Positions 3,167 to 5,675 of a stretch of DNA of 64,000 bases are shown here, one piece after another. Position 1 is the first letter of the stretch. The number at the start of each line of letters is the position of its first letter. A program made the position numbers and the translations under genes. The notes below the pieces were generated by a model. That model did no database searches. It was not told where the DNA came from and saw nothing but the letters and a program-made list of their open reading frames with translations. The stretch is from an uncultured Clostridia bacterium (GTDB taxonomy: Bacteria > Bacillota > Clostridia > Oscillospirales > Acutalibacteraceae): the NCBI GenBank assembly GCA_945876745.1, contig CAMCPL010000010.1:1-64000 (forward strand), in the 5' to 3' direction.

Positions 3167-3207
3167 CAAATGCTGAGACTTAGGTTATACTATTATTGGT
3201 GATAGAA

Positions 3208-3567
3208 ATGCCTAGACATGCAAGAAAAAAGAGTAACAGCGGAATATATCATATAATTCTGCGTGGTGTAAACAGACAGCAAATCTTTGAAGACAATGAA
3301 GATTATTATAAATTTTTGCAAGTCGTAGAAGAAAGCAAGGCAATAAGTGGATTTGAACTTTTTGCTTATTGCCTTATGAGTAATCATATTCACTTATTGC
3401 TTAAAGAAATCTAAGAACCAATAGAACAGATAATGAAAAGAATAACAACACGATTTGTTTATTGGTACAATATAAAATATCAGCGCAGCGGACATTTATT
3501 TCAGGATAGATACAAAAGCGAACCTGTGGAAGATGATGCATACTTTTTAACTGTGATAAGATACAAC
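3208..3567 (+). pseudogene. REP-associated tyrosine transposase (Y1_Tnp), truncated copy 1
   Basis: MPRHARKKSNSGIYHIILRGVNRQQIFEDNEDYYKF...MSNHIHLLLKEI, stop, EPIEQIMKRITT...; HUH motif HIH; lacks its 3' half. Confidence 0.85.
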
Positions 3568-3593
3568 CAATCAGGGGACGGTTCTCTGATTGA
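3568..3593 (+). repeat. REP-like palindrome, left end of RAYT copy 2
   Basis: caatcaggggacggttctctgattga. Confidence 0.85.
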
Positions 3594-3634
3594 CAAATGC
3601 TGAGACTTAGGTTATACTATCATTGGTGATAGAA

Positions 3635-4381
3635 ATGCCTAGACAAGCAAGAAAAAAGAGTAACAGCGGGATATATCATATAATTCTGCGTGGTGTAAAC
3701 AGACAGCAAATCTTTGAAGACAATGAAGATTATTATAAATTTTTGCAAGTCGTAGAAGAAAGCAAGGCAATAAGTGGATTTGAACTTTTTGCTTATTGCC
3801 TTATGAGTAATCATATTCACTTATTGCTTAAAGAAATCTAAGAACCAATAGAACAGATAATGAAAAGAATAACAACACGATTTGTTTATTGGTACAATAT
3901 AAAATATCAGCGCAGCGGACATTTATTTCAGGATAGATACAAAAGCGAACCTGTGGAAGATGATGCATACTTTTTAACTGTGATAAGATATATTCATCAA
4001 AATCCGGTAAATGCAGAGATATGCAAAAACCCAAAAAACTACTCTTTTAGCAGTTATAACGAATATTTCAAAACAACGACATTTGTTGATTGCAATTATG
4101 TTTTCGCAATAATAAAAAAAGACGATTTTATCAAACTTCACAAACAAAAAGTATCGGAACAATGTTTGGAAATTGAGGATAAATCGAAAGTTAGGGTAAC
4201 TGACGAGCAAGCACAGAAAATAATTGAAAAATATTCAAAATGTAAAAATGCAACTGAATTTCAGGCATTGGACATAAAGTTAAGAAATAAATGCTTAAAA
4301 AAGTTTAAGGAAAGCGGTCTATCTATACGGCAAATTAGTAGGTTGACAGGGGTTAGTTATTATTTGATACAAAAAATATAA
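3635..4381 (+). pseudogene. REP-associated tyrosine transposase (Y1_Tnp), full-length copy 2 with an in-frame TAA at 3839-3841
   Basis: ORFs 3623..3841 and 3860..4381 are in the same frame, separated only by TAA; HUH motif in the first part, RYIHQNPV (tyrosine helix region) in the second. Confidence 0.85.
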
Positions 4382-4411: not shown

Positions 4412-4516
4412 TTGCGATTATATCGCAAAGTGAAATACGCCGTTGGCGTGTTGAGGTTTGTTTGATTATATATTGCGGGAGGTCGAGGACGGTGCAGGTG
4501 AGATTATCCCCTACAA
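4412..4516. repeat. intergenic repeat with triloop hairpins and GTGAAAT linker (partner 5448-5552)
   Basis: ttgcgattatatcgcaaagtgaaatacgccgttggcgtgttgagg...atcccctacaa also occurs at 5448-5552. Confidence 0.8.
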
Positions 4517-4795: not shown

Positions 4796-5362
4796 ATGAA
4801 CCCAAAGAATAAAATAATCGCTAAAAATGTGTTTCAAATATTCAAAACACAGCCTAAAGTTTTTAAATACGGAAATGACGATAATACAAAAACTGTGGAC
4901 ATTGTAATTTGCGACAACAGTCCGTATGATGGTGTTAGTTCATATTCTACAATAGGATTGTATAATACAAATATAGGATTGAGTAGCAATGATAAACCGA
5001 TAAGAACTGAGATTTTAGGAGCTTGTGATATGCAAATAGAAGAGTTTGAAAACATTATTTCAACGGTTGCATTTGAAATAATGGATAGACAATGCGCATA
5101 TCCGGGTTTTGTTATTGATAATATTGTATCGATGTATATCGGTAATAGTGATATGAAACATTTGTTATTGACATATCCGTTTTTATGGGATAATACCAAC
5201 TCGATGAATTTTGATGATTTTACTCTTGCTTTCTTAATGTTAATACCTATTTCCGAAAGAGAAAAGGAGTATTGTAATGAAAACGGATTAGATGCATTAG
5301 AAACTATTTTTGAAGAATATCAAATTGATGTGTTTGACATTTATAGAAAAAGCGTTTTATAA
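4796..5362 (+). CDS. suppressor-of-fused (SUFU)-like domain protein, possible immunity protein
   Basis: ATG at 4796 with GAGAGGA upstream; VDIVICDNSPYDGVSSYSTIGLYN...EILGACDMQIEEFENIISTVAFEIM...LLTYPFLWDN...ISEREKEYCNENGLDALETIFEE matches the bacterial SUFU layout. Confidence 0.6.
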   Translation: MNPKNKIIAKNVFQIFKTQPKVFKYGNDDNTKTVDIVICDNSPYDGVSSYSTIGLYNTNIGLSSNDKPIRTEILGACDMQIEEFENIISTVAFEIMDRQCAYPGFVIDNIVSMYIGNSDMKHLLLTYPFLWDNTNSMNFDDFTLAFLMLIPISEREKEYCNENGLDALETIFEEYQIDVFDIYRKSVL

Positions 5363-5378
5363 TTATTGCTTTTGAAAT

Positions 5379-5400
5379 GCACAGGGGACGGTGCCTTGTG
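5379..5400 (+). repeat. REP-like palindrome, CACAGG/CCTTGTG class
   Basis: gcacaggggacggtgccttgtg. Confidence 0.75.
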
Positions 5401-5404
5401 TTCA

Positions 5405-5492
5405 GTGATATACGGCTGCGCCGTGTGAAATCGCAAGCGGTGAAATTTTGCGATTACATCGCAAAGTGAAATACGCCGTTGGCGTGTTGAGG
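5405..5492. repeat. hairpin array with constant GTGAAAT linkers
   Basis: Linkers GTGATAT 5405, GTGAAAT 5425, 5440, 5466, GTTGAGG 5486 alternate with hairpins ACGGC-tgc-GCCGT, CGC-aa-GCG, TTTGCGAT-tac-ATCGCAAA, ACGCC-gtt-GGCGT. Confidence 0.8.
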
Positions 5493-5675
5493 TTTGTTTG
5501 ATTATATATTGCGGGAGGTCGAGGACGGTGCAGGTGAGATTATCCCCTACAAAAATCTCTCTTATCTGCGGGCTTTGCGAGCCTTTGAATCTCTCCACTG
5601 CAAGCGGCTCCCTCTCTTTGACAATAGAGGATTGTTTATTATAGTGCGTTGTTGCAATAAATAGTAAAATTTCTC

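Follow-up and report, generated by a model that had tools for sequence, protein, structure and literature searches.

In 2010, Weinberg et al. (PMC2864571) described Gut-1 as a probable noncoding RNA, with human-gut metagenomes as its only known source. PF05635 is the family of the 23S rRNA intervening sequence (IVS) protein (S23/IVP) of, for example, Coxiella; IVSs replace small tetraloops while the host stem is kept, and the Coxiella IVS has 7-nt (heptamer) repeats before its ORF (PMC4990558). The Avd protein is homologous to PF05635 proteins (PMC10053308), and DGR homing requires a hairpin or cruciform in which the structure of the stem is fixed and its sequence is free (PMC3240598). Here we compare with these systems a short array of hairpins from a gut Clostridia genome. 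We consider it, with a probability of about 0.72, to be a gene-less, MITE-like copy of the structured, cis-acting end module of transposase-free, hairpin-targeting cassettes in Oscillospiraceae and relatives.

The array lies at positions 5405-5492 on the + strand of the window, by which we mean the whole stretch of 64,000 nt that was analysed, and reads GTGATAT-hairpin-GTGAAAT-hairpin-GTGAAAT-hairpin-GTGAAAT-hairpin-GTTGAGG. An initial annotation, made from the letters alone, had given this sequence and these coordinates, and both agree with the sequence on checking. Linker 1 (GTGATAT, 5405..5411) is followed by hairpin 1 (ACGGC-tgc-GCCGT, 5412..5424; ACGCC/GGCGT, ACGCT/AGCGT or CTGC/GCAG in other copies), linker 2 (GTGAAAT, 5425..5431), hairpin 2 (CGC-aa-GCG, 5432..5439; other copies have ATTTCC..GGAAAT or ATTCCC..GGGAAT instead), linker 3 (GTGAAAT, 5440..5446), hairpin 3 (TTTGCGAT-tac-ATCGCAAA, 5447..5465, from the sequence and comparison of copies), linker 4 (GTGAAAT, 5466..5472) and hairpin 4 (ACGCC-gtt-GGCGT, 5473..5485; ACGTC/GACGT, ACGCT/AGCGT or TTGCC/GGCAA in other copies). 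The description of a constant linker between variable, self-complementary units is borne out, with the caveats that only 3 of the array's 5 linkers are exactly GTGAAAT and that hairpin 2, with a stem of 3 bp and a 2-nt loop, is weak. A conserved 3' tail, GTTGAGGTTTGTTTGATTATA (5486..5507, + strand), begins with GTTGAGG (5486-5492). Copies at other loci share this tail and diverge after it, so it is probably the right end of the solo element.

Directly 5' of the array is a terminator/REP-like palindrome, H0 (CACAGGGGACGGTGCCTTGTG, that is, CACAGGggacggtgCCTTGTG; 5380..5400, + strand). In related window-type arrays the sequence at the H0 position varies but is mostly a hairpin, and at one locus (L034) this hairpin is the terminator of the host gene. 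The window copy, about 100 nt without an ORF that follow the palindrome, has a SUFU-domain gene (PF05076, 4799-5362) as its 5' neighbour; its other neighbour, just before nusA, is an ORF that, judging from the translations, we take to resemble rimP. A second, truncated copy (4412..4470, + strand, 98% identity over 59 nt) consists of part of hairpin 3, hairpin 4 and the tail, joined to a REP palindrome. The same part of the window contains an Imm11 (PF07791) gene at 1222-1764 and, at 3199-4381, a copy of a RAYT (REP-associated tyrosine transposase) gene that contains an in-frame stop and has REP palindromes (CAATCAGGGGACGGTTCTCTGATTG, CACAGGGGACGGTTCCTTGTG) around it; a partial tandem duplicate lies ahead of this copy. 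Imm11 and SUFU domains are typical of polymorphic-toxin immunity.

We scanned ab initio for any repeated 6-mer linker, with at most 1 mismatch, that separates hairpin inserts; the scan used no knowledge of the array sequence. The window array scored 3 hairpins and 15 points. When the whole window was dinucleotide-shuffled 40 times (2.56 Mb), the maximum was 3 hairpins and 8 points, reached once; shuffled sequence, which the initial annotation had named as a possible source of similar arrays, gave no equal of the window's score. Folding of the array as single-stranded DNA gave z = -3.35 for the + strand and -2.99 for the - strand, and folding as RNA gave z = -3.41 and -1.31, respectively. We conclude that the window array is real and beyond chance.

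The covariance model of the Rfam family Gut-1 (RF01706) matches the window copy twice on the + strand, at 5438..5545 and 5342..5436, with 36.1 and 33.9 bits (E 1.4e-5), both below the gathering cut-off (50 bits). In the genome of the window and in G053, close relatives of this copy are above the cut-off, with 53.3 bits (L023) and 55.1 bits (L359), and the UGAAAU linkers between short hairpins in the Gut-1 alignment are present in the window copy. Its kinship to the full elements described below runs through the Gut-1 model, the linker, the hairpin grammar and intermediate copies, with no shared gene. By these features the window array is probably a member of the Gut-1 group, which we read as a half-catalogued family of mobile-cassette ends. 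The statement that no named family has this design does not hold, although the Rfam entry models one half-array only, as an sRNA.

A search for relatives in the same and related genomes, as had been proposed, found many copies. The genome of the window holds 22 Gut-1 matches, 4 of them above the cut-off; within the genus, Gut-1 occurs in 27 of 60 genomes, and in the wider phylum the covariance model found it in 3 of 300. Copies similar to the window array at the DNA level number 13 in its own genome, 12 in G053 and 2 in G016. Near-identical copies (98%) are located at C1:227228, C1:230248 and C1:465440 as well as in the window, with unrelated flanks. Comparison of sequences shows that, in the genomes with full elements, gene-less copies that share the ends of those elements occur at scattered positions. 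The window array had no match among phage and plasmid records, and a literature search, with most subscription journals outside its reach, found no paper on this mobile element. As to whether the family is already known as a MITE, we found no catalogue entry that calls the window copy one; it does behave as a gene-less mobile element.

Comparison of 14 window-type copies reveals stems altered on both sides, in hairpins 1 and 4, and whole exchange of hairpin 2. Linkers 2-4 are the same within an array and different between arrays in 13 of the 14 (4.4 expected; none of 2000 shuffles reaches this number), with CGATAT, TGATGT, TGAAGT, ATTAGC and others as the linkers of other arrays. In a second subfamily, with 28 aligned copies, 97% of cells pair, as compared with 36-44% in slid controls, and double changes occur in 9 pairs versus 2.7 in shuffles. 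These 28 relatives thus have the compensatory double changes, and with them the selection on structure, that the initial annotation had envisaged. Mismatches are about equally G-U (29 cells) and A-C (20 cells), with 0 GU and 2 AC in forward arrays; hence, the data show selection on structure, not that the structure is RNA. The alignments demonstrate that stems are held by compensatory change and linkers held identical within each element, and we take the array stems to be under selection for structure, leaving aside RNA as its level. Covariation of the long outer stem was also considered, and was uninformative within the GGGAGAACC subfamily (zero double changes), its support coming only from comparison across subfamilies.

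The covariation bears on a reading in which Gut-1 is a free-standing structured noncoding RNA and the array an expressed sRNA. Compensatory changes in stems fit such an RNA, as do the RNA folding of a full leader (z = -10.3), the better RNA folding of the window copy on its + strand than on its - strand, and the Gut-1 entry in Rfam together with its listing as a probable ncRNA (PMC2864571). However, selection on RNA predicts an excess of GU over AC mismatches, and none is seen in the counts above. The position of the array, described below, also argues against an sRNA, and we consider this reading unlikely.

Whole hairpins are exchanged, and in one array (L115) two hairpins are missing between repeated TATTTCATA. 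Such exchanges, and the precision with which hairpins are lost at linkers, suggest that recombination takes place there. Another whole-hairpin swap is seen in two genomes (L112, L120), where hairpin 4 is replaced by a long GTTTTAGCATTCTCGCTGAAAGCGAGCAATACTAAAAC. Two arrays (L120 and L141, in G019 and G038) contain, near the middle, an interrupting stretch TTATTATGAGCATAGCGAATAACAAG..TTCTTATTTCATATCG that may be a second small insertion. In an array after tRNA-Cys in G031 (L270), hairpin 1 (ACGTTCC-tatc-GGAACGT) has a 16-nt core in common with the upstream terminator hairpin AACCGTTCC-tatc-GGAACGGTT, which looks as though hairpins might be copied. In 30 of 51 elements, versus 10 when shuffled, the arm of hairpin 1 recurs at long range, between the forward and the inverted array; this implies two competing folds, which would suit a switching substrate.

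Strong Gut-1 matches consist of a forward array followed by an inverted array, and the pair is often followed by a gene for a four-helix-bundle protein (PF05635/TIGR02436). The protein at one such locus (L021) scores 91 bits with Pfam PF05635 and 100 bits with TIGR02436, and the nearest solved structure to the four-helix-bundle protein is 2RLD. Among the 60 genomes of the genus, 24 have both Gut-1 and PF05635, 3 have Gut-1 only, 8 have PF05635 only and 25 have neither (Fisher p = 4.5e-7). We collected 85 PF05635 loci by protein alone; 71 have arrays at most 500 nt away, a share that is partly by choice since the query was built from array-linked proteins (80 genome loci). The polarity is unaffected by this choice: all 71 have arrays upstream, and 1 has an array downstream as well. 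Array density is 1.16 per kb near the PF05635 gene and 0.03 per kb far from it, a difference of about 40-fold. PF05635 loci from the phylum at large had no convincing arrays (2 of 30 flagged), and the five relatives of the protein on viral contigs included just one with arrays, L230. Arrays are also present in Oscillospiraceae bacterium MH27-2, at L202. At a locus in the genome of the window (L074, C6:17887), the PF05635 gene has the same CGATAT array on both sides, as a direct repeat of about 110 bp, where the usual layout is upstream only. A gene linked to the array, which the initial annotation had suggested looking for, is thus found for the family, with the window copy itself lacking it; overall, the earlier reading of the array is partly supported.

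A hairpin that carries A- and T-runs leads directly into the forward array, and the promoter of the gene lies between the array and the start codon (TGnTATAAT in 25 of 67 cases versus 0.36 in shuffles). This location, between terminator and promoter, speaks against a leader RNA of the gene. With the array starting immediately behind the terminator hairpin and the conserved promoter coming after it, there is little space for a promoter that could drive the array as an sRNA. Across these loci, sequence comparison shows that a full element consists of a forward and an inverted array together with a promoter; most also have a PF05635 gene, and some carry other small cargo.

An array that abuts a promoter could instead be a DNA operator, in which the 7-bp linkers bind the four-helix-bundle protein, which represses its own downstream promoter, and the hairpins serve as spacers. 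The concerted change of linkers, with one linker kept throughout each element, fits binding sites, and linker type tracks protein clade: among 9 sequences, the two CGATAT proteins are 69% identical to each other and 43-59% identical to the others. An operator would not account for hairpins of unrelated sequence that pair perfectly and covary, for solo arrays away from the gene, or for insertion at terminators, and we think it quite unlikely.

In the GGGAGAACC subfamily the left end is GGGAGAACCTTC..GAAGGTTCTCCC followed by the arrays, and the right end is ..CTCAGCCGCCTTCTTTATGACGGGCGCCC. All 7 elements of this subfamily with both ends (298-1291 nt) are inside a terminator loop with both arms kept; the terminator arms around them pair over 10-16 bp, with an A-run and a T-run, versus 3-12 for mismatched combinations. 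The cargo in this subfamily is PF05635, NUDIX, a membrane protein or nothing evident. A further split-terminator candidate (L121) was dropped once the right end had been defined, as a probable chance match inside a CHAP gene. Other subfamilies insert after terminators. For 40 of 52 forward arrays the sequence directly upstream is a perfect hairpin with 7 bp or more, and 35 of the 52 have an intact tRNA or tmRNA gene at most 90 nt away. At L229 a tmRNA gene is followed by a variant array with a gene, so that the targets extend beyond tRNAs.

Empty sites were compared at three loci only, between species rather than strains. A terminator that is intact in G002 (AAAAAATGCCTC-TTTT-GAGGCATTTTTTT) is occupied in its sister species G007 (AAAAAAGCCTC-(about 620 nt)-GAGGCTTTTTT), the flanking gene being 94% identical. 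The terminator before the window-type array L034, a relative of the window copy, is present without an array in G053; and the tRNA-Cys gene is followed by an element in G000 and G045, and directly by the next gene in G005. Taken together, the sequences show that the elements occupy terminator hairpins: some are within the loop, and others come straight after a terminator that belongs to a gene or tRNA.

Inspection of the ends by eye detected no terminal inverted repeats or target-site duplication of a transposase family, and no recombinase was identified for the elements. Reverse transcriptase (PF00078) is not associated with Gut-1 (9 of 27 genomes with Gut-1 versus 7 of 33 without, p = 0.38), being absent from 18 of the 27 array-bearing genomes, and was rejected as a partner; hence, a DGR-like process with a standard reverse transcriptase is unlikely. 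Movement by the RAYT transposase near the window array is the basis of a further alternative, namely that the arrays are REP/BIME-like palindromes that reinforce terminators and that PF05635 has no role. The broken RAYT copy and REP palindromes in the window fit this scheme, and several window-type copies follow REP palindromes; a REP unit, however, has a constant sequence and comprises one or two palindromes, whereas here the stems vary and the linkers are constant. The scheme also leaves the PF05635 link, the defined ends and the cargo unexplained. We regard it as very improbable.

We favour the reading of the window array as a gene-less copy of a cassette end. The array would be a cis-acting module for recognition and folding, its hairpins either extruded from DNA or folded in the transcript. 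The cognate four-helix-bundle protein may bind it through the 7-nt linkers, as suggested by linker type following protein relatedness, and the array would direct integration, without a transposase, at the tips or ends of hairpins, comparable to the position of 23S rRNA IVSs in hairpin tips and to the guidance of DGR homing by hairpins. Solo arrays, such as the window copy, would have been moved in trans. A broader proposal, which we hold tentatively and at less than even odds, is that these elements represent a new class in which S23/Avd-like proteins recognise 7-nt linkers of modular hairpins and place cassettes into terminator loops or ends, with 23S IVSs and DGR Avd as related machinery.

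The results set the orphan "noncoding RNA" of 2010 in a genomic context, and it is probably of another kind; an orphan RNA motif becomes testable as part of a mobile element. Gut-1 is linked to PF05635, a family whose role in 23S rRNA IVSs is still open (PMC4990558). If our reading is correct, gut Oscillospiraceae have a mobile element of the cassette type for which terminator hairpins and the ends of tRNAs are a standing target. The movement of intervening sequences would then be testable, the analysis having defined the ends, the targets and the empty sites as well as a candidate protein and substrates without a gene.

The array family differs from each of the known systems it resembles. Unlike a CRISPR array, its variable units are self-complementary and its linked gene is PF05635. 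Like MITEs and REP/BIMEs, the gene-less copies are short, dispersed and palindromic, and the empty L034 site in G053 is a further MITE-like feature; however, window-type arrays lack terminal inverted repeats of known IS, combine variable stems with a constant linker, and have a full-length partner that encodes a four-helix-bundle protein rather than a transposase. Group IIC introns insert at terminator hairpins. The array elements share this target, but are inside the loop or after the T-run, and Rfam detects no intron ribozyme core at the array loci, which also have no linked reverse transcriptase. With Gut-1 RNA the arrays have in common the UGAAAU linker and the hairpin grammar, and related elements exceed the cut-off; the Rfam model, in contrast, treats as an sRNA a stretch of about three hairpins from a single half-array, without the inverted partner array, linked gene, promoter placement, terminator targeting or mobility. 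DGRs are similar in that Avd is a homologue of the PF05635 proteins of the array elements and in that their homing depends on a hairpin, and differ in that no linked reverse transcriptase was found for the array elements, the 9 of 27 Gut-1 genomes with a reverse transcriptase showing no association. Relative to 23S rRNA IVSs, the array elements are at terminators and tRNA 3' regions rather than in 23S rRNA helices, and have hairpin arrays, their own promoter, other cargo and many copies per genome. What they share with IVSs is a PF05635 ORF inside the full elements, absent from the window copy, and insertion into a hairpin tip with the host stem kept, as in 7 of 7 complete elements of one subfamily, the window copy instead following a palindrome.
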